Below, piece after piece: positions 1 to 10,157 of a DNA stretch of 36,631 nucleotides. The position numbers were made by a program, and so were the translations under genes. Numbering within the stretch: position 1 is the stretch's first letter; every line of letters begins with the position of its first letter. The stretch is from Sedimentitalea xiamensis. GTDB lineage: Bacteria > Pseudomonadota > Alphaproteobacteria > Rhodobacterales > Rhodobacteraceae. The stretch spans positions 1 to 36,631 of the forward strand of contig NZ_JASNJE010000038.1 of NCBI RefSeq assembly GCF_030164465.1, in the 5' to 3' direction. The notes under the pieces were generated by a model that worked only from the letters and a program-made list of their open reading frames with translations, was not told the origin of the DNA and made no database searches.

Positions 1-104
1 GGACGTTTACGGAGTTGTTCAGCGCGCTCGGAAGGATATGCGACCTGTTCACTCCCGACGAATGCATGAACTACTTTCGCGCTGCAGGATATGCGCCAGG
101 TTAA
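1..104 (+). CDS. IS630-family transposase, C-terminal fragment (cut by window edge)
   Basis: The frame beginning at base 3 is open from the window edge and ends in TAA at 102-104. It encodes the segment LGRICDLFTPDECMNYFRAAGY, shown here only by its ends: an ICDLFTPDEC core followed by NYFRAAGY. This closely resembles the C-terminus of IS630-family DDE transposases, in which a 'PEEC-NYF--AGY' ending is typical. Only about 33 residues are visible, so the catalytic domain lies outside the window and I cannot say whether the copy is intact. It belongs to the chromosome on the far side of tRNA-Glu, left of the integrated element. Confidence 0.72.
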   Translation, partial: TFTELFSALGRICDLFTPDECMNYFRAAGYAPG

Positions 105-308
105 TCCCGAAATGCTTTAGGGAGACCACGAAGCCAATCGCACGGCTTTCGGTACAGCGGCGCAGAACAGCGACCGACGCGGAGCTGACGGGTGCACGCC
201 GCGAGACGATCAGCAAACTCTACAGCTTCCTGTGCGCTTGCATTAGGGAATGTATAGAAATCCAGCCCTCTGAATTTCAGATGCAAAATCAATATCTCAC
301 AAGGATAA
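105..308. other. Left chromosomal flank between the IS630 fragment and attL; no gene recognised
   Basis: This stretch of about 200 bases lies between the transposase stop and the attachment repeat. Open frames exist on both strands, but none gives a recognisable protein. Before the element integrated, it was the sequence directly downstream of tRNA-Glu. It may include the right end of the IS630 copy. Confidence 0.4.
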
Positions 309-325
309 GTGGCAGCCCGTAGGGG
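309..325 (+). repeat. attL core (17-bp direct repeat, copy of tRNA-Glu 3' end)
   Basis: The sequence GTGGCAGCCCGTAGGGG is identical to 10082-10098, where it forms the 3' acceptor end and part of the T arm of tRNA-Glu plus the CCA. This left copy is the orphan tRNA tail displaced by integration. Identity stops at 326. Confidence 0.93.
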
Positions 326-360
326 CCGCGCACAAAATAAATGAAATCAATGGGTTAGTC

Positions 361-421
361 TGTCCAACCCCGCTCTATGTGGGTGTTGATATCAAAGCGG
401 AATTTCCGAGATTGTCCAACC
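361..421. promoter_or_regulatory. Probable integrase arm-type binding sites, left arm (TGTCCAACC repeats)
   Basis: TGTCCAACCCC occurs at 361-371 and TGTCCAACC at 413-421. The same motif occurs near the right end at 10010-10020 (11 of 11 bases identical to the first copy) and inverted at 10029-10037. Short repeats flanking an attachment core on both sides are the usual layout of arm-type sites bound by the N-terminal domain of lambda-type integrases. The role is inferred; the repeats are seen directly. Confidence 0.6.
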
Positions 422-430
422 GACGAAGGC

Positions 431-469
431 CAAAAGAAAACGCCGCGTCTGTTGGACCTAGACGCGGCG
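431..469 (-). terminator. Rho-independent terminator candidate reading leftward
   Basis: A perfect 10-bp stem (CGCCGCGTCT at 441-450 with AGACGCGGCG at 460-469) encloses a 9-base loop. On the - strand the stem is followed by TTTTCTTTTG, giving an intrinsic terminator for leftward transcription. The loop contains GTTGGACC, most of an inverted copy of the arm-type motif, so the structure could also be an integrase site. No - strand gene is seen to feed it. Confidence 0.5.
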
Positions 470-569
470 CTCGAAAAGAAAAGCGCCTGTTCACAACGCT
501 CAAGACCGAAGATAGCCGATTTCAGGTCCACCGCACAAGCGGTAATCCTGCTTTTGCGGGGTGCCTGGT

Positions 570-1739
570 ATGACGCAGAGGGACGACCAGACAAGCGCAC
601 CACTCGACGTTTGCGCAATTAGGGAAGCATTCGCCAAGGCCGAACAAGTAGACGCGCCGGCAAACATGGTGCCCATGAACAAAGTCGTGCGGGATCGCCT
701 AGCCCATCTCAAAGGCCAGGTGCGATCCGCGCGCGAAGCCCAGGCCGACCTGGATCCGAATTATCTGATCAAGGGCTGGCTCATGGGGGGCGCCACCAGC
801 GTGATCTACGGGCCTTCGAACGTGGGCAAGACTTTTCTTGCGCTCAAGATCGCCCAGGCCGTTGCATCCGGCACTGATTGGTTCGGATGCAAGACCCGCC
901 GCCAACATGTTCTATATGCGGCGGCCGAAGGCGGCCGTGCCTTTGAAAACCGTGTAGCAGCATTGCGCGCGGCCGAATTCGACTGGATCACACATCCATT
1001 TGATTTCCACGCAAACGCGATTGACGCCCAGGTTCTCGCCCATCTCTACAACGAGATGAACCCGAACCCAGCACCCGGACTGATCATCATTGACACCCTG
1101 GCACGGGTAATGGCCGCCGGGGATGAGAACTCCAGCGTGGATATGGGGCTGCTGATCCGCAATGTGGATACGCTGGCCCGCATGACTGGCGCGCATGTCA
1201 TGCTGATCCACCACACCGGCAAGGATACAGCCCTGGGTGCCCGTGGGCACTCATCCCTGCGGGCTGCGATAGACACCGAAATCGAACTGTCCCGCGATGA
1301 GGAAAGCGGCGTGATTTCCGTCATGTCGCGGAAGCAGCGCGATATCGGGATGGGGCGGGATGCCTATTACAGCCTGGCCGAGGTGCACTTGGGCACCGAT
1401 CCAGACGGTGATGCCGTGACCACTTGTATCGTTGCAGAGGCAGAGGCGCAGGAACCCGTAGTCAAGGACAAGCGCAGGCCGTTGAAGGGCCACCAACAAG
1501 TTGCCCACCAGGCGCTTCTGGATGCGCTAAGGGACCACGGCCAAAAGCGCAGCGGCCCGGATTTCCCTGGTAAACCTGTGGTCCACGTCGATCACTGGCG
1601 GGAAGCCTGCAAGCTGCACGGGTTGCTGAATAATCCGAAATCGAAGGACGGTGGGCGGAATGCATACAAGCGGGCAAAGGAATGGCTAATGAACAGCGAC
1701 TATGTGCGCTCATATCAAGACTACTGGTGGGTGTGTTGA
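570..1739 (+). CDS. RepA-like hexameric helicase / AAA ATPase, replication protein of the element
   Basis: This 389-residue protein has a RecA-fold ATPase core of the AAA_25/RepA type. It shows Walker A GPSNVGKT at residues 81-88, an acidic segment YAAAEGG at about 116-122, Walker B LIIID at 171-175 and LIHHTGK at 213-219, where the paired histidines match the RepA/DnaB-type sensor. A basic C-terminal region after about residue 300 may be a DNA-binding domain. Such proteins unwind origins in small plasmids, phages and satellites. A GTG three codons upstream at 561 is an alternative start; I chose the ATG at 570, which is preceded by GCGGGG. It is the first gene of the element and lies directly upstream of an origin-like repeat region, which suggests it replicates the excised circle. 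No primase domain is visible. Confidence 0.82.
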   Translation: MTQRDDQTSAPLDVCAIREAFAKAEQVDAPANMVPMNKVVRDRLAHLKGQVRSAREAQADLDPNYLIKGWLMGGATSVIYGPSNVGKTFLALKIAQAVASGTDWFGCKTRRQHVLYAAAEGGRAFENRVAALRAAEFDWITHPFDFHANAIDAQVLAHLYNEMNPNPAPGLIIIDTLARVMAAGDENSSVDMGLLIRNVDTLARMTGAHVMLIHHTGKDTALGARGHSSLRAAIDTEIELSRDEESGVISVMSRKQRDIGMGRDAYYSLAEVHLGTDPDGDAVTTCIVAEAEAQEPVVKDKRRPLKGHQQVAHQALLDALRDHGQKRSGPDFPGKPVVHVDHWREACKLHGLLNNPKSKDGGRNAYKRAKEWLMNSDYVRSYQDYWWVC

Positions 1740-1877
1740 AGTTGCATTCGGGTAACAGGGTCGCAGTAGTGTGCGGCAGAAAAGTGGATGGCGCACACGG
1801 AGCGTTGCATTTCAATGTAACATTTTTAATTGTTGAAAAACAATGCGTTAAATGTGCCCGTAATATCGGTTTGGCGG

Positions 1878-1960
1878 AAAATGATACGCCATGTTACGGC
1901 ACTACACCCCGCAGGCGGAAAATACGTTACATTTTGGGGGTTGCGGCGGCGTATCATTTT
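1878..1960. repeat. 13-bp perfect inverted repeat (AAAATGATACGCC / GGCGTATCATTTT)
   Basis: The left arm is at 1878-1890 and the right arm at 1948-1960, separated by 57 bases that contain further GTTAC motifs. The outer bases and the spacing fit protein-binding half-sites better than a terminator. It is part of the origin-like region. Confidence 0.7.
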
Positions 1961-1962
1961 GG

Positions 1963-1986
1963 GGTAATGCCTAAAGGCATTAACCC
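1963..1986. repeat. Palindrome GGTAATGCCT-AAAGGCATTAACC
   Basis: TAATGCCT and AGGCATTA form an 8-bp perfect stem around AA. On both sides runs of G and C (GGGG ... CCCC) extend the pairing with one bulged base. It is flanked by near-inverted copies of GTTACATTTTGGGGG, at 1925-1939 and 1983-2000. Confidence 0.65.
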
Positions 1987-2106
1987 CCAAAAAATGTTAC
2001 GCATGTTACGCGGCCGAGTATCAGCCGTATCGCTTTCGCTTGCGCTACAGCAATACGGCCAATACGCGGCCGCTGCGTCGGTGCAGATCAGCGGATGGGT
2101 GCAGCC

Positions 2107-2421
2107 ATGAACCGCTGGCCCTATTGCACCACAGCCTGGCGCAAGCTGCGCTCTGCCAAGCTGGATCAACAGCCCATGTGCGTGATCTGCGAGCGCCGTG
2201 GCAAGACAGTGCTGGCGAACACGGTCGATCACATCAAGCCGATCAGCCAGGGCGGCAAGCCCTTTCCTCCGCTGGAAGAACTGCAATCGCTGTGTGCCAG
2301 CTGCCACAGCGAAAAGACGCACATGCACGACAAGACACGAGGCAATGCCCTGGGTCGCAGGTTCAAGGGCTGCGACGAAACAGGACAGCCGATTGATCCC
2401 AGCGATGGGTGGTGGCGATGA
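2107..2421 (+). CDS. HNH endonuclease, phage packaging type
   Basis: This small protein (104 residues) carries the classical HNH fold: CVIC near residue 24, then VDHIKPISQGG (the D-H of the first beta strand), the asparagine-position segment LEELQSLCASCHSEKT, and a C-terminal GWWR. The CxxC and CxxCH pairs would bind a structural zinc ion. In HK97-type phages and capsid-forming satellites, an HNH protein encoded next to the terminase stimulates cos cleavage and DNA packaging. The gene lies 294 bases upstream of terL in the same orientation. An in-frame ATG at 2095 is an alternative start; I used 2107, which leads into the family-typical NRWPYCTTAWRKLR. The packaging role is inferred from context. 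Confidence 0.85.
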   Translation: MNRWPYCTTAWRKLRSAKLDQQPMCVICERRGKTVLANTVDHIKPISQGGKPFPPLEELQSLCASCHSEKTHMHDKTRGNALGRRFKGCDETGQPIDPSDGWWR

Positions 2422-2715
2422 ACCGGGGGGCCTTTCAATCACGGGAAATGGCCGCGTGCGTAACCAATCCCCCCCACGCGCGTATAGTTAATAAGGTTCG
2501 TGTCGCTGACCTAATTTCCGTCAGCAATATTGACCTTTTTTGCGGGAGGTCAGGCAAAACGGGCCAACCCTTCTTTTCGCCAGGATATGCGCAAGCATCG
2601 AACAGGGGCGCAGCGTGCCCACAAGGGGCCGCATTGGTTTTGGAGGCCCCATTTACCAGAAAAACCAATGCGGCCCCTTGTGGGTGGCCACAGGCGACGA
2701 ACGGAGGAAATTGAT
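2422..2715. other. Non-coding gap between HNH and terL with large hairpin; candidate cos/packaging region
   Basis: A frame of about 100 codons spans the gap and ends just before terL, but half of it encodes the two arms of an inverted repeat and the product resembles nothing known, so I do not call it. The stretch also contains a small hairpin, GCTGAC-CTAATTTCC-GTCAGC. In HK97-like phages, cos sites lie close to the HNH and terminase genes, so this is where a packaging site would be expected. That role is inference. Confidence 0.4.
2618..2684. repeat. 24-bp perfect inverted repeat with 19-base loop upstream of terL
   Basis: The left arm (2618-2641) starts CCCACAAGGGGCCGC. The right arm (2661-2684) ends GCGGCCCCTTGTGGG. 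All 24 positions pair. No T-run follows on either strand, so it is not a standard intrinsic terminator. The ribosome-binding site of terL (ACGGAGGA, 2701-2708) lies outside the stem. Confidence 0.93.
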
Positions 2716-4374
2716 ATGGGACTGCGAGGCCAGGGCGCTACGCCCAAACTGATCGTGGACAACCGCCAGGGCAACCTGGGTTTTGATCTTGAAGAAACCA
2801 CACCAATGCGGGGCACTTTGCCCTGGGAGGCCACCGGCCTGTCTCGCCTGGATCGCGTGATCGCGTTCCTGGAGGACTTGCCGATTACACAAGGATCGCT
2901 GGCCGGCACGAAGCTGCAAATCCGGCCCTGGCAACGTGATTTCCTGGCAGCGGTGTATGCCGAGGATCAGGACGGCAACCGCCCCGTGCGAACGGCCGTG
3001 CTGTCGATGGCTCGCAAGAACGGCAAGACCCAGCTTGTCGCTGGATTGGCGCTTGCCCACCTGCTGGGGCCAGAGGCCGAAGGGCGCGGCGAAGTCTACG
3101 CCGCGGCGAACGATAAGGCCCAGGCGGGTAAGACATTCGCTGAAATGAAGGCGATCCTGGAGGAACATCCCGGACTTGGCGCGCGGGTGAATATCGTCAA
3201 TTTCCACAAGCGCATGGAAGTGCTGCAAGGCACCGGCAGGGGATCGATCTTCCAGGCGCTTTCTGCCGATGCCAGCACGAAACAGGGCCTTTCCCCCAAC
3301 TTCGTTGTATATGATGAACTCGGCACCGCGCCAAAACGCGACCTGTATGAGGCGCTGGATACCGCGATGGGCGCCCGCGACAATCCGCTGATGTGCGTGA
3401 TCAGCACCCAGGCCGCCAGCGACACGGCCGCGCTGTCTACGCTGATCGACTACGGGGTGAAGGTGAATGCGGGCGAGGTGCAAGACCCGAGTTTCCATCT
3501 GACATTCTACACCGCTGCGCCGGACGATGATCCATGGAGCGAAGAAACCTGGCGCAAGGCAAACCCTGCCCTAGGCGATTTCCGTTCCCTGGAGGATGTG
3601 CGCCGCCAGGCGGGCCAGGCGCAGCGGATGCCGGCGGCCGAACAGGGCTTTCGCAACCTGATCCTGAACCAGCGTGTGGATGCGCATGTGCGTTTCCTGG
3701 CGAAACGGGAATGGGACAACTGTGCGGGCCAGGTGGATTTCTCGGGGCTTGCCGGCCGCCAGTGCTGGGCTGGTCTGGACCTGTCGCAATCCCGCGACCT
3801 GACCGCGTTCGTGATGGTGTTTCCTGACGATGCCGGCGGGTTCGATATCCTGCCGCGTTTCTTCCTGCCAGAGCGCGGGATTGCCGAGAAATCCGATCTG
3901 GACAGGGTGCCCTATGACGTGTGGGCGCGGCAAGGCTTCCTGACCCTGATACCAGGCGCAACCGTTGATCCGTCATTCGTGGCCGAGGCTATCGCCGATG
4001 CCTGCGACCAATACGACATGCGGCGGATCGCCTATGACCGCTGGCGCATTGAGGACTTGCGCCGCGAGCTGGCCCGCATGAACGTGGCCCCACCGCTGGA
4101 ACCGTTCGGCCAGGGCTTCAAGGACATGGCGCCGGCGGTGGACAAGGTGGAGCGCCTGGTGGCCGAGGCACGCCTGCGCCACGCGGGTAATCCGATCCTG
4201 ACATTCTGTGCTGCCAACGCGGTGATCGAGCAAGACCCGGCGGGAAACCGCAAACTGGCAAAGAACAAGAGTAGCGGCCGGATCGATGGACTGGTGGCCC
4301 TGGCAATGGCCCTGGGTGGCATGGATCGGGAAACCGTTTCCGAGGTGCCAGGGTGCCTTGAGGGATTGCTTTAG
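2716..4374 (+). CDS. terL: Terminase large subunit, HK97/lambda-type
   Basis: The 552-residue product is a full-length TerL motor-nuclease. The N-terminal ATPase shows the Walker A variant MARKNGKTQ at residues 98-106 and Walker B VVYDELG at 197-203. The C-terminal RNase H-like nuclease shows acidic residues in WAGLDLSQSRD (Asp355, Asp361) and RIDGLVALA (Asp524). It pumps DNA into empty proheads and cuts the concatemer, normally guided by a small terminase subunit, which I do not find. The start at 2716 is set by the strong site GGAGGA eight bases upstream. The frame is open further upstream to 2530, but that part translates through a long inverted repeat and is not part of the family. It is followed by an operator-like region and two small genes. 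Confidence 0.93.
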   Translation: MGLRGQGATPKLIVDNRQGNLGFDLEETTPMRGTLPWEATGLSRLDRVIAFLEDLPITQGSLAGTKLQIRPWQRDFLAAVYAEDQDGNRPVRTAVLSMARKNGKTQLVAGLALAHLLGPEAEGRGEVYAAANDKAQAGKTFAEMKAILEEHPGLGARVNIVNFHKRMEVLQGTGRGSIFQALSADASTKQGLSPNFVVYDELGTAPKRDLYEALDTAMGARDNPLMCVISTQAASDTAALSTLIDYGVKVNAGEVQDPSFHLTFYTAAPDDDPWSEETWRKANPALGDFRSLEDVRRQAGQAQRMPAAEQGFRNLILNQRVDAHVRFLAKREWDNCAGQVDFSGLAGRQCWAGLDLSQSRDLTAFVMVFPDDAGGFDILPRFFLPERGIAEKSDLDRVPYDVWARQGFLTLIPGATVDPSFVAEAIADACDQYDMRRIAYDRWRIEDLRRELARMNVAPPLEPFGQGFKDMAPAVDKVERLVAEARLRHAGNPILTFCAANAVIEQDPAGNRKLAKNKSSGRIDGLVALAMALGGMDRETVSEVPGCLEGLL

Positions 4375-4395
4375 GAAAAAACTAGAAAACAGTGC

Positions 4396-4439
4396 TTGCC
4401 AGACATCATGTATTGCAATACATAGAGTATAGCGATACT
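4396..4439 (+). promoter_or_regulatory. Putative promoter overlapped by two palindromic operators
   Basis: TTGCCA (4396-4401) and TACATA (4419-4424) are 17 bases apart and resemble a sigma-70 promoter for the two-gene unit starting at 4488. The spacer and -10 are covered by the perfect 16-bp palindrome ATGTATTGCAATACAT (4408-4423). A second dyad, AGTAT-AGCG-ATACT (4426-4439), follows directly. Two adjacent dyads over a promoter are typical of a repressed or autoregulated gene. The likely binder is the HTH protein at 4751, by inference. Confidence 0.55.
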
Positions 4440-4487
4440 TCATGTATGGCAAAGTCAAATAGAAAGACCGACGAAAAGGAATAAGCA

Positions 4488-4751
4488 GTGAAAAAGCAAG
4501 ATCACCCCAGCCAACGTCAGATCGACTTGTTGGAGATTGAAGGGCAGGTCCACTGCCTGGCCAACAATGTCCTTACCGCTCTGCGGTTAGCCTGGCACCA
4601 GGCGATGGAAGCGCCACGCAATGAACGCCCTCACAATGAAGCCTGTGTATTCGACAACCTCGAATACCTGACCTCAAAAGCAATCGAGGACATGCAAGAG
4701 CTTATGGCACAGCTTGGCACCGCACATGAAATCAAGCGGGAGGCGGCTTAA
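4488..4751 (+). CDS. Small hypothetical protein of the satellite (87 aa)
   Basis: I do not recognise this protein. It is short, predicted mostly helical and mildly acidic in its C-terminal half, with histidines scattered through the first half and no membrane segment or signal peptide. It starts at GTG 4488 behind AAAAGGA and ends in TAATG, sharing one base with the next start, so the two genes are probably translationally coupled. It lies between terL and the capsid block, downstream of a palindrome-covered promoter. A role in packaging or in control of the element is possible; nothing in the sequence decides between them. Confidence 0.7.
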   Translation: MKKQDHPSQRQIDLLEIEGQVHCLANNVLTALRLAWHQAMEAPRNERPHNEACVFDNLEYLTSKAIEDMQELMAQLGTAHEIKREAA

Positions 4752-5359
4752 TGTCTAAGGTAGAGAGCACAAAAGCCCAGCAAAACATCACCAATGCGAA
4801 GTTTGAACTTCCCGAGGTTCTGGAAGTTGCTGGGCTTCCGCTTACCACCTTCAATGCGTGGGTGCGGCGTAGCAAAGACCCGCGATACGACATTCCCGCC
4901 ATTCCAGACCTTGAAGGTGCGATGGCGCATCCCGGCCACAGGAAGCACCGTCAGGTAAATGGCTTGGGCGCAATTTTCATCATTGTGGCCAAACACCTGG
5001 TGGATGGTGGCGCAACTGTCGCGGAAGCATTGATGGCCGCCACACGGTTTACATTCGTAGGCGAGTCCGGCCGCGTGCCTGGCGGGCTTTACGAAAGCGA
5101 GATTACCATGTTGGTAATCGAACGCTTCGCGGACGAACCCTCAAAGTCCTATGTCGGCGCCCTACCCAAACACTGGAAGGGCAGTGGCTTTTTTCCACCC
5201 CCGCAATGGCACCGCGGCTATGCCCAGGGTCGGCCCATTTCTTGGCTCTTTTTCGATGTCGAAAATTTCCTACCACAGTTGTGTCGGGAACTTGGGATTG
5301 AACCGGTGGAGACCGCCCGCGACAGCGACGATGACAACCTTGAAATCGACAAGAGATAA
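4751..5359 (+). CDS. Hypothetical protein with MerR/AlpA-like helix-turn-helix (202 aa)
   Basis: Residues 18-44 contain the segment LPEVLEVAGLPLTTFNAWVRR, whose ends I quote as LPEVLEVAGLPL and TTFNAWVRR. This has the spacing of a MerR/AlpA-type helix-turn-helix (hydrophobic helix, G turn, T-x-x-W-x-R recognition helix). A second helical part around GHRKHRQ...VAKHLVDGG resembles the helices that follow in that fold. The C-terminal 100 residues are unfamiliar, with an acidic tail. AlpA-like proteins control PICI induction, so a regulator acting on the dyads at 4408-4439 is one reading. Because small terminases also use an N-terminal HTH and none is otherwise present, it could instead be a divergent TerS. 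I rate both as open. Confidence 0.65.
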   Translation: MSKVESTKAQQNITNAKFELPEVLEVAGLPLTTFNAWVRRSKDPRYDIPAIPDLEGAMAHPGHRKHRQVNGLGAIFIIVAKHLVDGGATVAEALMAATRFTFVGESGRVPGGLYESEITMLVIERFADEPSKSYVGALPKHWKGSGFFPPPQWHRGYAQGRPISWLFFDVENFLPQLCRELGIEPVETARDSDDDNLEIDKR

Positions 5360-5561
5360 CGAATTCCCCCTCGGGGAGTCAGGGCGTTGCGGTGACGCCT
5401 ACAATCTGCGCCGGGCCGAGGGGGTGTTATTCCTTCCCGGCGCAGGACACCGCACCAAATTCCCGCTGTGAAGCGGCATCTTCCCTGCGCCAGGCTTGCC
5501 TGGCCCGATGGACCTTCAACCCCGCCGGGATGGCGGCATTTTCCCAAAGATGGAGACCTGA
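5360..5561 (+). promoter_or_regulatory. Hairpin-dense leader upstream of the capsid gene
   Basis: This 202-base gap contains no gene but packs several perfect stems: TGCGCCGGG/CCCGGCGCA (5407-5415 and 5436-5444), CCGCT/AGCGG (5463-5476), GCCAGGC/GCCTGGC (5489-5504) and CCGCC/GGCGG (5522-5536). None is followed by a clear T-run. Candidates are an RNA-stability or translation leader for the highly expressed capsid gene, or DNA sites for packaging. Confidence 0.5.
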
Positions 5562-6791
5562 ATGAAACCGCACGAAATCAAAGAGGCCCGCGCGGCCAGG
5601 ATAGCAGAAATGCGCCAGATCAATGAGACCGCGACCGCAGCAAATCGCGACCTGACCGGCGAAGAACGCGCCCGTTTCGACACCCTTGACGGTGAGGTGC
5701 GCAACCTCAATACGCGTCTGTCCGATGCCGAGCGCCTGACCGAGTATGAGCGCCTGGAAGAACGCGCCGAACCGATCAATGGCGGCACGTTCCGCCGGGG
5801 TGATCTGTCGGGCTATTCGCTCGCCAAGGCGTTGGTGGAAAGCCGCGCGGGAACCCTGACCGGCCTGGAAGCGGAAGCACACCAGGAACTGGCCAAGGAT
5901 CGCGCAGAGGTGCGCGGCGTCATGGTGCCCACCGATGTGATCCTGGGCGGCGAAACCCGCGCCCTGCTGACCACGGGCACGGGTGGCAACATGGTGTCCA
6001 CCGATCTGGCGGCCATGACGGATCGCCGCCGGCCCGCGCTCAAGGTCGAGGCGATGGGCGCCACCTTTCTGCGCGGCCTTTCGGGCAATATCGATCTGCC
6101 GCGCCTAAGCGCATCCGGCACGGCTGGGTGGGTGGCCGAGAACGCGGCGGCAGCCCGCAGCGATGCGACCTTTGCCAAGAAATCGATGGGGCCGAAAACC
6201 GTGACGGCCGAATACGAGATTTCGCGGCGGATGCTGCTGCAATCCAACCAGGCGCTGGAACCGATCTTGCGCGCGGATCTGGGCTATCTGCTGGCCCAGG
6301 CCCTGGATGGCGCTGCGATCCGTGGCGCGGGAGCCAATGAGCCGACCGGCATCCTTGCCGATGCGAATGTGACCAGCGTGACCGGCGGCGCCTTCTCCAG
6401 CGATATCACGGCCGATCTTATCGCCGCGCTGGAAACCGACGATGTGACCGGCACCGCGGCCTTTCTGACCAACCCGGCCGTTATGGCGGTGGCGCGCAAG
6501 GCTAAGGACACCACCGGCCGCGTGATCCCGCTGGCCGAACTGTTCCACAACCAGCGCGCCGAAGCATCCACCCAGGTGCCGCGCGATATCGGCGTGGGCG
6601 GCGACAAGAATGCGCTGATCTATGGCGAGTGGGCCAGCCTTTACGTGGGCTACTGGTCTGGCGTTGATCTGCTGATGAACCCGTATCACACCGACGTGGC
6701 CAGCAAGGGCGGTGCGTTGCTGCATGCCTTCCTGGATGCCGATGTGGTGGTGCGCCACCCCGAAGCATTCCGCTATGCGGAGATTGATTGA
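5562..6791 (+). CDS. Major capsid protein, HK97 fold
   Basis: The 409-residue protein has the architecture of HK97-type capsid precursors. A charged, coiled-coil-like N-terminal delta domain occupies about residues 1-75 (from MKPHEIKEARAARIAEMRQI onward). A Gly/Ala/Thr-rich shell domain follows, with the typical mid-protein segment GWVAENAA and the E-loop and A-domain regions. The delta domain acts as an internal scaffold and is normally removed by the prohead protease encoded 270 bases downstream. The start at 5562 is preceded by TGGAGAC. The stop overlaps the connector start by one base (TGATG), consistent with a translationally coupled head operon. It is the main evidence that this small element makes its own shell. 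Confidence 0.92.
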   Translation: MKPHEIKEARAARIAEMRQINETATAANRDLTGEERARFDTLDGEVRNLNTRLSDAERLTEYERLEERAEPINGGTFRRGDLSGYSLAKALVESRAGTLTGLEAEAHQELAKDRAEVRGVMVPTDVILGGETRALLTTGTGGNMVSTDLAAMTDRRRPALKVEAMGATFLRGLSGNIDLPRLSASGTAGWVAENAAAARSDATFAKKSMGPKTVTAEYEISRRMLLQSNQALEPILRADLGYLLAQALDGAAIRGAGANEPTGILADANVTSVTGGAFSSDITADLIAALETDDVTGTAAFLTNPAVMAVARKAKDTTGRVIPLAELFHNQRAEASTQVPRDIGVGGDKNALIYGEWASLYVGYWSGVDLLMNPYHTDVASKGGALLHAFLDADVVVRHPEAFRYAEID

Positions 6792-7066
6792 TGGTCTCGC
6801 TTGGCGATGCCAAAGCCCACCTCCGCGTCGATCACGACGCGGAGGACGGGTTGATAGAGGGGTTGGTTGATGCAGCCGCCGACCACCTGCAATCGATCGA
6901 TGTGGATGTGTCTGTGGTCCCGCTGCCGGGGGCACTTCGTCAGGCGATCCTTTTGCTTGTGGCCCATTATTACGCAAACCGCGAAGCGGTGAGCGATCAG
7001 CTGGTGCACGTCCTTCCCCTTGGCGTTGCCCGGCTGATCGCGCCTTATCGGAGCCTTGGAATATGA
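6791..7066 (+). CDS. Head-tail connector, gp6-like
   Basis: This 91-residue, mostly helical protein starts MVSLGDAKAHLRVDHDAEDG. It matches the HK97 gp6 / phage_connect_1 family, whose members begin with a 'L--aK-hLRvd-d-eD--i' pattern. The middle segment AILLLVAHYYANREAV is also typical. Thirteen or so copies form a ring under the portal, and the ring provides the docking site for a tail or stopper. In a tail-less element, this is the protein most likely to contact a helper tail. It overlaps the capsid stop by one base and the protease start by four (ATGA). Confidence 0.85.
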   Translation: MVSLGDAKAHLRVDHDAEDGLIEGLVDAAADHLQSIDVDVSVVPLPGALRQAILLLVAHYYANREAVSDQLVHVLPLGVARLIAPYRSLGI

Positions 7067-7596
7067 GCATCGAAAGGAGATTTCAGCCTGCGGAACTGCG
7101 GGCAAAAGGGCGGCGGCTTGAAGGGCACGCCGCCCTTTTCGGGGCATCTGCGCAGATTGGCGGCGGCCTGGTCGAAACCATCGCGCCAGGTGCCTTCGCG
7201 GAAAGCCTTGCCACTCGCCAGGATATTCTTGCCCTGGTCGACCATGACCCAATACGGGTGTTGGCGCGCACGAAGTCAGGCACCTTGCGCCTGGCTGAAG
7301 ATAGCCAGGGCTTGGCCTTTGACCTGGACTTGCCGGATACCCAGGCCGCGCGTGACGTTCTGGCCCTGGCCGAGCGCGGCGACCTGGGCGGAATGTCTTT
7401 TGGGTTCACTGCTACACGCGACGATGTGCAGGGCAGCACACGAACCCTGCACGCGGTTGAACTGTTCGAGATTTCCGTGGTGGCGGCCTGGCCAGCCTAT
7501 GAAGGCACCACGGTCCAAGCCCGCGCGCTTTCCAATTTCACACCATTCCGCACTGCTGCCGCCCGCCGCCTGCGCATCTGGGAGTTGATGCAATGA
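7063..7596 (+). CDS. Prohead (capsid maturation) protease, HK97 / peptidase U35
   Basis: The 177-residue serine protease shows the U35-family pattern: the segment GHAALFG near residue 21, an APGAF motif at 41-45, catalytic His61 in LVDHDP, Ser112 in GGMSFGF and an acidic residue in ELFEISVV (133-140). It would cleave the delta domain from the capsid precursor and then itself, allowing expansion and DNA packaging. It overlaps both neighbours by ATGA, so connector, protease and portal are coupled. Here the protease follows the capsid, whereas in HK97-like phages it precedes it. Confidence 0.9.
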   Translation: MSIERRFQPAELRAKGRRLEGHAALFGASAQIGGGLVETIAPGAFAESLATRQDILALVDHDPIRVLARTKSGTLRLAEDSQGLAFDLDLPDTQAARDVLALAERGDLGGMSFGFTATRDDVQGSTRTLHAVELFEISVVAAWPAYEGTTVQARALSNFTPFRTAAARRLRIWELMQ

Positions 7597-8807
7597 GCAT
7601 TTTAAAGCGCCTGCTGGGCGTTGAAACCCGCAACACTGTCACCACGTCCGATCCGAGCCTGGCCGAATTCCTGGGCCCGCGCAGCGGCGTTTCCGGCTAT
7701 GTCGATAATGCCCAGGCATCGGGCCTGGCCGTGGCGCAAGCCTGCATCACCGTTATCAGTCAGAACCTGGCGGCGATCCCGCTGAACGTCTACCGCCGCG
7801 GCGATGATGGGAGCCGCGAACGCGCCCAGGATCATCCATTGCAGCGGGTTCTGCATGACCAATTCACCCCGAGCATGACTGCCTTTGAAGCGCGCGAGGC
7901 GTTGATTTCCGATCTGCTGACGAACGGCAACGCCTATGCGGTGATCGAGACCAACGGGCGGGGCCAGGTGGCCCGTTTGTTCCGAGTCTCCCCGGCAATG
8001 GTATCCATTGAGCGAATCAACAACGGCCGCCTGCGCTACCGCGTGGCGGATCACCGGGGGCAAACCAAGGTCATGATCCAGGATGAAATCCTGCATCTGC
8101 GCTATCGCATCGGCCCGGATGGGGTGTTGGGCGTATCCCCGATCCAACTGGCGCGGGAAGCCTTTGGCCTGGCCCTGACCCAGCAAGAACAAGCCCGGAA
8201 ACAAGCGGCCAAGGCATTCCGTGCGGAGGGTGCCCTGGTGTTCCCGCAGCCGATCCCCGGCGACAAAAAGAGCGAAGCCCTGGACAAACTGGCCGCGCGG
8301 CTGGAGAGCCAGGCCAGCACCTCGGGCGTTATCGTGCTTGATGGCGGCGCCGAATGGCACCCGCAATCGCTTTCCTCGAAAGATGCGGAATTCCTGGAGA
8401 GCCGCAAGCTGTCGAACCTGGATGTGGCGCGGGTTTTCAACGTGCCGCCAACGGCTATCGGCATCGTGGACAATGCCACCTACAGCAACGTGGAGGGCGA
8501 AACCCGTGCCCTGGTGACGCGCTGTCTTGCCCCAATGGCCCGCCGGATCGAACAGGCAATGAATGCGGCCCTTCTGACCGCCGATGGGCGGCGGCGGCAT
8601 TTCATCGAACACGACATGGGTGCCTTGCTGCGGGGCGACCTGGGCGCCCGGTATGACGCCTACCGCGTCGGCCGCGAAGCCGGTTTCCTGTCGGTCAATG
8701 AAATCCGGCGCCTGGAAAATCTGCCACCTGTCCCAGGTGGCGAAACCCACATCCAGCCGATGAACTTCGCGCCTTTGGGCGCGCAAAGCCAAGAAGAGGG
8801 AAACTAA
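7593..8807 (+). CDS. Portal protein, HK97 family
   Basis: The 404-residue product is a phage portal. It begins MSILKRLLGVETRN, has the typical early segment AQACITVISQNLAAIPLNVYRR, the central LLTNGNAYAVIETNGRGQV and the conserved C-terminal part VARVFNVPPTAIGIVD followed by YSNVEGE. Twelve copies make the vertex ring through which the terminase pumps DNA. The C-terminal tail (LSVNEIRRLENLPPVPGG) is also characteristic. The start overlaps the protease stop by four bases. Being the last head gene before the integrase region is unusual, since portal is normally first after terL. Confidence 0.92.
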   Translation: MSILKRLLGVETRNTVTTSDPSLAEFLGPRSGVSGYVDNAQASGLAVAQACITVISQNLAAIPLNVYRRGDDGSRERAQDHPLQRVLHDQFTPSMTAFEAREALISDLLTNGNAYAVIETNGRGQVARLFRVSPAMVSIERINNGRLRYRVADHRGQTKVMIQDEILHLRYRIGPDGVLGVSPIQLAREAFGLALTQQEQARKQAAKAFRAEGALVFPQPIPGDKKSEALDKLAARLESQASTSGVIVLDGGAEWHPQSLSSKDAEFLESRKLSNLDVARVFNVPPTAIGIVDNATYSNVEGETRALVTRCLAPMARRIEQAMNAALLTADGRRRHFIEHDMGALLRGDLGARYDAYRVGREAGFLSVNEIRRLENLPPVPGGETHIQPMNFAPLGAQSQEEGN

Positions 8808-8984
8808 ATGGCATATCCCCGCGCGACCGTGAAGCAATCCGATCTGACAAAGTATTTCAAAGCTGCCCAGGCTGCGGGATACGAAAGGCCGCGCGTGGTC
8901 ATTCACCCCGATGGGAGGGTGGTTATCGAAGCGGTTGAAGATGAAGGAACAGCCGGCAATCCGTGTGACGTGCTGTTGAAATGA
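8808..8984 (+). CDS. Small protein coupled to integrase (58 aa), possible excisionase
   Basis: The frame starts at ATG 8808, directly after the portal stop, and ends in TGA at 8982-8984, overlapping the integrase start by four bases (ATGA). The product begins MAYPRATVKQSDLTKYFKAA and contains a beta-hairpin-like segment RVVIHPDGRVVIEAVE. I do not recognise a named family. The N-terminal KQSDLTKYFKAAQAAG could form a short helix-turn-helix. Size and tight coupling to an integrase gene suggest a recombination directionality factor or integrase partner; this is inference from context only. Confidence 0.72.
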   Translation: MAYPRATVKQSDLTKYFKAAQAAGYERPRVVIHPDGRVVIEAVEDEGTAGNPCDVLLK

Positions 8985-10123
8985 GCGGCCGCCGAAACCC
9001 GTTTCCTGGTGTTACCCGCGTCGTGGATCGTCACGGCAAGGTGCGCTGGCGCTATCGGCGCAAGGGCTTTTCCTGCTACCTGCCGGGGGAATATGCCTCG
9101 GCCGAGTTTCGCGCGGCTTATGAGCGGGCGCAGGACGGGGCCAGACCACCAGTGACCAAAGCACCGCAATCCGGCACGCAGCACTGGTTGGTCGAGCAAT
9201 ATCTGCGATCCGCAAAGTATCGGGATCGCTCCGAGGTTTCTCGCCGCGTTTTGCGCAAGGAACTGGACTGGTTGCTTGACCAGGCAGGGCAGCTGCCGTT
9301 TGCGTGCCTTGAAATCCGCCATATCGAAGCAATCATGGACAGGAAGGAAGGACCGGCGGCGGCCAATAAGGTGCGCAAGAACCTTTCACTATTGCTCAAC
9401 TTCGCAATCCGTCGGGGCTATGGCGTGACATTCAATCCGGCGCGATACGCAGAAAAGCGCAAGGAAAACCCTGACGGTTTTCATGTTTGGACAGAGGCAG
9501 AGATTGCCAGGTTCAAAAGGCATCACGCCGCGGGAACAAAAGCGCGGTTGGCACTGGCAATCTTTCTCTGCACCGGGGCATCCCGCCAGGATGCGGCCGC
9601 CATGGGTTGGCGGAATGTCGCCGGTGCCAGGATCAGCTATCGGCGCGGCAAGACGGGTGTTGAGGCAAATCTGCCGATCCTTCCCGATCTGGCCGAAGAA
9701 CTGGCCTACGTGTCGCCTGATCAGGCGCTATTTCTGACCCATAGCGGGGGCAAGCCCTACAAGCCCGAAACCCTGGGCAACTGGTTTCGGGATCAGTGCA
9801 ATGCAGCTGCTGTAAAGGGTAGTGCACATGGGTTGCGAAAAGCTGGTGCGACCCGCCTGGCCGAGGCCGGCGGCACACCGGACGAAATCCGCGCTTTCCT
9901 GGCGCACGCGACGAACAAGGAAGGTCAAACCTACACGAAAAAGGCGGATCGGGCGCGCCTGGCCGACAGCGGACTTGCGAAGCTGGGAAGCCTGGACCAT
10001 AGTGAAGAATGTCCAACCCCACAGAACAGGTTGGACAAAATAGGGAAAAAATCCAATGAAACCAATGTGCAGGCAGGTTTTGTGGCAGCCCGTAGGGGAA
10101 TCGAACCCCTCTTTCCAGGTTGA
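8981..10123 (+). CDS. int: Tyrosine recombinase / integrase of the element
   Basis: The 380-residue protein is a lambda-type integrase. An N-terminal arm-binding part (about 1-60) is followed by a core-binding SAM-like domain (about 65-155) and a catalytic domain with Arg202 (TGASRQD), Lys224 (RRGKTG), His283 and Arg286 (HGLRK), His309 (LAHAT) and nucleophile Tyr318 (GQTYTKKADR). It would recombine attP with the tRNA-Glu 3' end. The gene reads out of the element: codon 368 begins at the first base of the attR core, and the last residues (IEPLFPG) are encoded by tRNA-Glu read antisense. In the excised circle the end would instead be RAQNK, with stop at 342-344. It is convergent with tRNA-Glu. 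Confidence 0.92.
   Translation: MSGRRNPFPGVTRVVDRHGKVRWRYRRKGFSCYLPGEYASAEFRAAYERAQDGARPPVTKAPQSGTQHWLVEQYLRSAKYRDRSEVSRRVLRKELDWLLDQAGQLPFACLEIRHIEAIMDRKEGPAAANKVRKNLSLLLNFAIRRGYGVTFNPARYAEKRKENPDGFHVWTEAEIARFKRHHAAGTKARLALAIFLCTGASRQDAAAMGWRNVAGARISYRRGKTGVEANLPILPDLAEELAYVSPDQALFLTHSGGKPYKPETLGNWFRDQCNAAAVKGSAHGLRKAGATRLAEAGGTPDEIRAFLAHATNKEGQTYTKKADRARLADSGLAKLGSLDHSEECPTPQNRLDKIGKKSNETNVQAGFVAARRGIEPLFPG
10010..10037. promoter_or_regulatory. Probable integrase arm-type sites, right arm
   Basis: TGTCCAACCCC (10010-10020) and its inverted form GGTTGGACA (10029-10037) lie inside the 3' end of int, 45-72 bases from the attR core. They match the direct copies at 361-371 and 413-421 near attL. 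Conservation of the motif inside coding sequence supports a DNA-site function. Confidence 0.6.
10082..10098 (+). repeat. attR core (17-bp direct repeat inside tRNA-Glu)
   Basis: GTGGCAGCCCGTAGGGG is identical to 309-325. It covers the tRNA acceptor 3' strand, discriminator, CCA and first T-arm bases, so the tRNA gene is rebuilt on integration and stays functional. Confidence 0.93.
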
Positions 10124-10157
10124 AAACCTGGCGTCCTAACCGATAGACGAACGGGCC
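10083..10157 (-). tRNA. tRNA-Glu (anticodon TTC)
   Basis: On the - strand the gene starts GGCCCGT at 10157 and ends ACGGGCT-G-CCA at 10083, giving a 7-bp acceptor stem (first pair G-U) and an encoded CCA. The anticodon stem CCAGG/CCTGG encloses TTTTCAA with anticodon TTC, and the T-loop reads GGTTCGATTCC. It is the integration target of the satellite. It lies downstream of recJ on the same strand but has its own promoter-like sequence. Confidence 0.96.

Follow-up and report, generated by a model that had tools for sequence, protein, structure and literature searches.

Capsid-forming phage-inducible chromosomal islands (cf-PICIs) are defined by a capsid, head maturation protease, portal and head-tail connectors of their own and are widespread across Bacteria (PMC10690885), and their capsids form three clades (PMC11389934). 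Here we analyse a stretch of 36,631 nucleotides from the alphaproteobacterium Sedimentitalea xiamensis (hereafter the window), which is the entire contig NZ_JASNJE010000038.1 (C31 of genome G000) and carries a 9773-bp element bounded by attachment (att) sites. We consider this element, with a probability of about 0.8, to be an integrated phage satellite that would encode its own head and packaging motor and obtain its tail from another element. The tail is probably borrowed from another phage or phage-like particle because head and packaging genes are present and no tail gene is recognised. A sequence-only reading of the window had proposed a tail-less, head-encoding satellite, and this proposal is now well supported by a layout that recurs among relatives, a nearly constant size and purifying selection.

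All genes of the element lie on one strand, in the order replication ATPase, HNH endonuclease, large terminase subunit (TerL), p87, p202, capsid, gp6-like adaptor, protease, portal, p58 and integrase. The start of TerL was placed at 2716 by alignment with relatives. The features of the element are as follows, with profile matches and their E-values where there are any.

309-325, +: attL, 17-bp core GTGGCAGCCCGTAGGGG; two-copy repeat, with a flank matching the tRNA-Glu surroundings of congener G1023
361-370, +: left copy of the exact 10-mer TGTCCAACCC, possible arm-type site of the integrase
561-1739, +: replication ATPase (AAA_25, RepA/primase-helicase-like), GTG start; PF13481 9.9e-38, phrog_906 (DNA polymerase/primase) 7.8e-42
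2095-2421, +: HNH endonuclease; PF01844 9.4e-11, phrog_2323 2.1e-27
2716-4374, +: TerL, ATPase and nuclease, 552 aa; PF20441 1e-38, PF03354 6.1e-21
4408-4423, no strand: perfect 16-bp palindrome ATGTATTGCAATACAT, candidate operator; single copy in the window, spotted by eye first
4488-4751, +: p87, small protein; no family in profile searches
4751-5359, +: p202, probable MerR-like DNA-binding protein in a variable pre-capsid slot; MerR_1 in accessory open reading frames (ORFs) of relatives
5562-6791, +: HK97-fold major capsid protein; PF05065 1.2e-27, TIGR01554 1.1e-34
6788-7066, +: gp6-like head-tail adaptor; PF05135 1.5e-13, phrog_40 (Ad1) 3.5e-26
7063-7596, +: prohead protease (S78); PF04586 1.5e-40, TIGR01543 9.4e-29
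7593-8807, +: portal protein; PF04860 6.7e-92, TIGR01537 2.2e-60
8808-8984, +: p58, small conserved protein, candidate excision factor; homologues in 23 of 130 loci, no family
8981-10123, +: tyrosine integrase, its frame running through attR with the stop inside tRNA-Glu; PF00589 2.5e-9
10010-10019, +: right copy of TGTCCAACCC, exact 10-mer, possible arm-type site
10082-10098, +: attR, second copy of the 17-bp core GTGGCAGCCCGTAGGGG
10083-10157, -: tRNA-Glu (ttc), the attachment gene; ARAGORN

The borders are defined by the 17-bp direct repeat, whose two copies are the only ones in the window (none was expected from shuffles) and whose right copy covers the 3' end of the tRNA-Glu gene. The left border is host DNA, because bases 286-308 together with the core match the sequence adjoining the tRNA-Glu of congener G1023 (88% over 41 nt). 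In four congeners this tRNA gene adjoins recJ. When 1.5 kb beside the congener tRNA-Glu was searched by tblastn with the element proteins, no match was found in G1024 and G106, a 23-aa match lying over the tRNA end itself was the only one in G1023, and G1025 gave a 61-aa integrase-like match (34%); the G1025 site may carry a different element. The uniqueness of the repeat, its overlap with the tRNA, the flank match and the congener sites together indicate that the 9773-bp element is integrated at tRNA-Glu, and the repeat and the domain matches bear out the earlier description of an att-bounded 9.8-kb element with intact ATPase, HNH, TerL, capsid, connector, protease, portal and integrase genes. 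Because the integrase gene ends inside the tRNA, its last residues change on integration and excision: from the frame, the last seven (IEPLFPG) are predicted to be replaced by five others (RAQNK) in the excised circle. The 10-mer TGTCCAACCC near both ends has a shuffle mean of 0.07, a pattern that was picked after sighting.

Pfam, PHROG and TIGR profiles recognised no tail or lysis gene among the window proteins, as the sequence-only reading had held. Nor did the profiles recognise AlpA, head closure or a small terminase subunit (TerS), except that the TerS-labelled HNH family phrog_4581 matched the HNH protein; a cryptic TerS might lie in p87 or p202. The ORF at 1682-2110 matched no family. 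HNH and TerL are no more than 150 bp apart in 73 of the 88 loci of relatives compared. A small conserved protein with the motif HRxPxxFHxEK overlaps the start of the HNH gene in four relatives (L034:3753-3941, L044:3692-3865, L045:1848-2012 and L040:4190-4414), and was not seen in the window.

The E. coli CP region with which we compared the element is presumably EcCIEDL933, the cf-PICI prototype, as its gene set fits. Like the window, it has capsid, protease, portal, gp6-like connector, HNH, TerL and integrase genes, no annotated tail, and the order capsid-protease-portal. BLASTP identities between the two are 42% for the protease, 32% for the portal, 27% for TerL and 29% for gp6, with 41% over 66 aa for HNH and 31% over 67 aa only for the capsid. 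EcCIEDL933 is organised over about 14.4 kb as integrase (Int), helix-turn-helix protein, further genes, DUF927, single-stranded DNA-binding protein, further genes, major capsid protein (MCP), protease, portal, closure, connector, HNH, TerS and TerL, whereas the window element runs ATPase-HNH-TerL-...-MCP-gp6-protease-portal-Int over 9.8 kb, has no recognised TerS, AlpA or closure protein, and does not group with it in the capsid tree. Of the features of cf-PICIs, the window thus shows the capsid, protease, portal, gp6-like adaptor, HNH, TerL and integrase in an att-bounded chromosomal island in which no tail gene, and also no small terminase, was recognised by profiles. We therefore regard the element as working like a cf-PICI without filing it as one, since order and size differ and TerS, AlpA and closure were not recognised; the earlier label 'cf-PICI-like' holds for the probable mode of working and fails for strict membership.

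The Acinetobacter elements (plasmid pHZE33-1-1, L199, and the IMG/VR loci L310-L321) share with the window the capsid-protease-portal order and, on several contigs, a length of about 10 kb. They differ in that HNH, an ORF that is possibly TerS, and TerL come after the portal, and the integrase of L315 and L318 stands at the 5' end. The cf-PICI label on them in our trees is our own, no source using that name. In L199 (Acinetobacter schindleri plasmid NZ_CP044475.1, 132 kb) the cassette is capsid-protease-portal-HNH-TerL-connector-closure, with a gene of a cyclic oligonucleotide-based antiphage signalling system (CBASS) downstream and no tail annotated within the 25 kb examined.

Gene transfer agents (GTAs) of the RcGTA type resemble the window in having HK97-type head genes in Alphaproteobacteria, and differ in the order TerL-portal-protease-capsid, followed by tail genes. 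A GTA cluster is not known to be att-bounded or to have an integrase. The window element shows none of the GTA hallmarks, having no recognised tail genes and possessing both an integrase and att borders. The Streptomyces satellites MulchRoom and MiniFlayer also encode their own capsid and packaging genes, as the window does, and are unlike it in being parasites of virulent phages with direct terminal repeats and, as reported, no significant homology to PICIs (PMC10690885). The cf-PISP satellite-plasmid TG54 of Vibrio crassostreae, which was assigned to cf-PICI by SatelliteFinder, likewise has head and packaging genes and no tails, and is unlike the window in being an episome of 15.8 kb that carries genes for plasmid maintenance and lacks an integrase (PMC13230959). 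A literature search, part of which was too broad to be informative, yielded among the papers listed no description of the window family or of a satellite insertion in the GTA terminase gene g2; alphaproteobacterial members may already stand in the primary cf-PICI literature.

Relatives were collected from IMG/VR by a portal alignment scan (80 of 180 confirmed loci kept), a capsid alignment scan (80 of 175 confirmed loci kept) and a further capsid scan (seven loci), and from genomes with the window portal (12 loci). Eight duplicate loci from a single contig were removed, which left 130 for mapping with profiles. Nine phage-type loci (L119-L127; phages or pieces of phages), whose portals are about 34-36% identical and precede the capsid where both are visible, were excluded, as was one of the remaining 121 loci that has no portal. 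The order capsid-protease-portal is found in 114 of the 120 portal-bearing relatives, and a same-strand integrase lies within 1.4 kb past the portal in 88, only upstream in 19 and in neither position in 13, eleven of which have at most 2.5 kb of sequence past the portal. Of the other two of these 13, L064 has an integrase past the portal on the opposite strand, and L160 a serine integrase there. By comparison, five of 10 fetched phage records annotate portal, protease and capsid, and all five do so in that order, opposite to the satellites. Capsid matches at E<=1e-20 were present in 8 of 398 genomes of a phylum sample, the window's own genome counted.

Size is also conserved. Among 23 loci searched for att repeats, nine were counted (repeats of at least 15 nt, spacing 9.7-11.1 kb), L044 being included although its repeat is 15 nt and no tRNA was called; the count leaves aside L084 (repeat of 14 nt), L089 (15 nt, at the end of its contig) and L138 (18 nt, with copies 4.2 kb apart), and eleven loci showed no repeat. 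The nine long repeats lie at tRNA-Arg, -Phe, -Gly or -Thr genes, or where no tRNA was called. Together with the window and seven elements inserted in g2 (see below), this makes 17 boundary-defined elements of 9728-11140 bp (mean 10220, standard deviation 408). The closest relative found, L052, shares the tRNA-Glu, the core sequence and the integrase ending, and ends portal-p58-integrase-tRNA. Over six genes, the window and L052 differ by a nonsynonymous divergence (dN) of 0.09-0.25 and a synonymous divergence (dS) of 1.3-2.8, which indicates that the shared genes are under purifying selection. Judged from these comparisons, the window element is a member of a large, little-described family of elements of about 10 kb.

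Tail genes were also sought in the accessory content of the relatives. In 45 elements there were 193 unlabelled ORFs no shorter than 85 aa; the scan pooled 146 of these, drawn from 42 elements. The matches listed include replication initiators, Xre repressors, head completion proteins (6/146), MerR_1 (5/146), one Terminase_4 (1/146) and one AlpA, and no tail family; they cover 25 of 66 PHROG and 25 of 29 Pfam families. Ten ORFs past the portal in L094, L098, L160 and L167 included two head-closure proteins, the serine integrase and a lipoprotein-like match, and none matched a tail family; those of L094 and L098 matched head closure or completion.

In the portal tree, 32 of 33 alphaproteobacterial elements formed one supported clade (97/95), and a quick TerL tree placed 30 of 30 in one clade (100). 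Three Acinetobacter elements branched beside the alphaproteobacterial ones in the capsid tree, within a 97-supported group apart from phages, and the same neighbourhood, again apart from phages, was seen in the TerL tree (87, not starred). With L050 left out because of its divergent portal, the portal tree had all satellites on one side (92/88, not starred). The TerL and capsid trees do not include L050, L111 and L117, and the TerL alignment does not include L040. In the capsid tree, where the cf-PICI references are the EcCIEDL933 region, one relative and the three Acinetobacter elements only, the window is close to the Acinetobacter set and not to EcCIEDL933. Given the long branches present, a common origin with the Acinetobacter elements is likely, not proven.

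A sister branch of the family, which the sequence-only reading had not brought out, is inserted in the GTA terminase gene g2. In Chelativorans intermedius (L036:1718-14626) and in the IMG/VR loci L131 and L135, family elements separate the bulk of g2 from g3 and share the strand of the GTA; in L036 the GTA genes up to the baseplate hub protein follow the satellite on the same strand, and in L110 the right-hand side of such an insertion is visible. The integrases of these four loci are mutually 79-96% identical. An integrase scan of IMG/VR with L036, L131 and L135 as queries gave 40 loci, 13 of them at no less than 60% identity. In 12 of these 13 the C-terminal piece of g2 lies 44-52 nt behind the integrase match (L346 is without it); two of the 12 are the query contigs L131 and L135, without which the count is 10 of 11, and L336 probably comes from the same source as L337. 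The query locus L036 has the piece as well. Of the 27 loci below 60% identity, 26 were searched and none had the g2 piece. On contigs that extend far enough, the inserted elements are followed on the same strand by head and tail genes of the GTA. Both junctions are visible in seven loci, with an 8-bp core, ATGTGCGA, in copies 9918-10752 bp apart. The g2 frame is broken at ...LED(E/Q)MC, and its last ~40 residues are severed, including SPDR(L/V)DALVWA in all 12 tails translated; the uninterrupted g2 of the S. xiamensis host reads SPDRMDALVWA at that motif. The SPDR..DALVWA motif probably contributes to the nuclease site of the terminase. The link to GTAs in the sister branch is genuine at the level of the genome and hypothetical at that of function. 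The g2-inserted group consists of L036, L131, L135, L110 and L335-L345, of which L335, L336, L338 and L340 have head genes of this kind in a more divergent form. The g2-site integrase was found in 0 of 385 genomes of a class sample at E<=1e-80, which alone shows little.

The host genome holds two candidate sources of tails. On contig C24 (1-16000; L210) there is a siphophage-like prophage that encodes a protease-capsid fusion as well as major tail, tape measure, distal tail and large fibre proteins. Contig C66 (158000-177500; L334) carries a GTA cluster in which g2 (471 aa) is uninterrupted and a frame of 1325 aa contains a GTA_TIM domain. Either could, judging by its gene content, supply a tail. 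A second GTA_TIM match in the host is a 199-aa frame at C39:7851-8282. The earlier reading had suggested looking for a resident or co-infecting siphophage with a matching tail connector; a resident siphophage-like prophage is present, and the adaptor comparison favoured no donor, as the satellite gp6 resembles the adaptors of cf-PICIs, phages and GTAs to much the same degree, and gp6 was dropped as a guide to the donor.

Under the satellite reading, the integrase would excise the element once a helper that has a tail becomes active, and the ATPase would replicate it with a host or helper polymerase. The head genes would then be turned on from a presumed control region between TerL and capsid, with its palindrome and the MerR-like p202. 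Small heads would be built from capsid, protease, portal and adaptor; HNH and TerL would cut the ~10-kb genome and package it into them, and head closure, tail and lysis would come from the helper.

Several points weigh against this reading. No TerS that would account for the start of packaging was recognised, and no phage-sensing regulator was identified in the window copy. Because the matches listed in the pooled scan cover only part of the families and 146 of the 193 ORFs, the scan could have missed a tail family represented by one ORF, and short tail proteins of a novel type are conceivable. The dS between the window and L052 is near saturation, L050 falls outside the alphaproteobacterial portal clade on a long branch, the capsid tree unites all 30 alphaproteobacterial elements at a support of 25 only, and the case as a whole is built on sequence alone.

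Among other explanations, a decaying prophage or deletion derivative that lost its tail module would account for head genes of the ordinary HK97 phage type. We judge it very improbable, since the tail-less layout recurs across many hosts and sites at near-constant size, dN is far below dS between the window and L052, the frames of the window are intact and overlapping, and the capsid-protease-portal order is the reverse of that in the phage references. Among the relatives mapped, a recognised tail module never follows this set of head genes, and L052 is likewise tail-less; within that scope, the finding that would have refuted the earlier reading did not appear, in agreement with its argument against a decayed prophage. 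Equally remote is an autonomous tail-less virus or vesicle-spread element whose heads would leave and enter cells without a borrowed tail: it would fit the lack of a recognised tail and of a named helper, but the portal and gp6-like adaptor are widely conserved and point to tail docking, head-completion matches occur in the pooled accessory ORFs and in L094 and L098, and no lysis gene was recognised.

The involvement of GTAs deserves more weight, while still improbable for the window. In such a scheme the satellite would make its own ~10-kb head and TerL and mount GTA tails upon GTA expression, instead of the tails of an infecting phage, and the g2-inserted branch would disable GTA packaging while integrated. 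The sister integrase group does target g2, with GTA genes downstream on the same strand, and the window host has a GTA with an uninterrupted g2. On the other hand, the window element sits in a tRNA and not in a GTA, the satellite gp6 adaptors are not specially close to GTA g6, and a conserved gene end is a common integration target regardless of function. We likewise hold it unlikely, as a tentative extension, that these elements are in general satellites of GTAs, combining a ~10-kb head of their own with a GTA tail, one branch inactivating g2 so that GTA induction would spread the satellite and not host DNA. An integrated satellite that takes its tail from another element remains the preferred reading.

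As a satellite, the window element extends the head-making satellites by an alphaproteobacterial branch. Its members are shorter than the E. coli prototype by about a third, have their genes in a different order and show no recognised TerS. The near-constant size of about 10 kb predicts a small capsid of fixed volume. The g2-targeting branch joins satellites and GTAs, which are treated apart, and opens to experiment the question whether a domesticated GTA can be parasitised by satellites, or shut down for as long as they are integrated.

The interval between TerL and the capsid gene may, from its layout, be the control region of the element, with p202 as regulator. The palindrome ATGTATTGCAATACAT sits between TerL and the p87-p202-capsid genes, and no sigma-70-type promoter-like match was found in 4360-4760. 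In relatives the slot before the capsid is often taken by a variable, probably DNA-binding protein, and two of them (L035 and L046) have a minus-strand Xre-type gene in the interval. The profiles found no repressor among the window proteins, so the earlier claim that a classical repressor is absent is upheld for the window copy and does not extend to these two relatives. p202 itself has no Pfam match, and its AlphaFold2 model (pLDDT 65.8, moderate to weak) gave no Foldseek match at E<=1e-3; identification by fold was dropped, as the MerR-family candidates CarH, CueR and GlnR rank among or below unrelated matches. A protein of about 145 aa lies directly before the capsid gene in L069:5188-5631, L135:9507-9941, L136:7821-8255 and L141:3246-3680, and may be the virion structural protein phrog_10356, found twice in the pooled scan.

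The contig starts 308 bp left of attL. Its bases ~1-120 (window 1-121) recur as 100% copies in at least six other contigs of the genome, three of which have the copy at or close to their first base. A repeat, perhaps an insertion sequence, is therefore the probable site of the break in the assembly.

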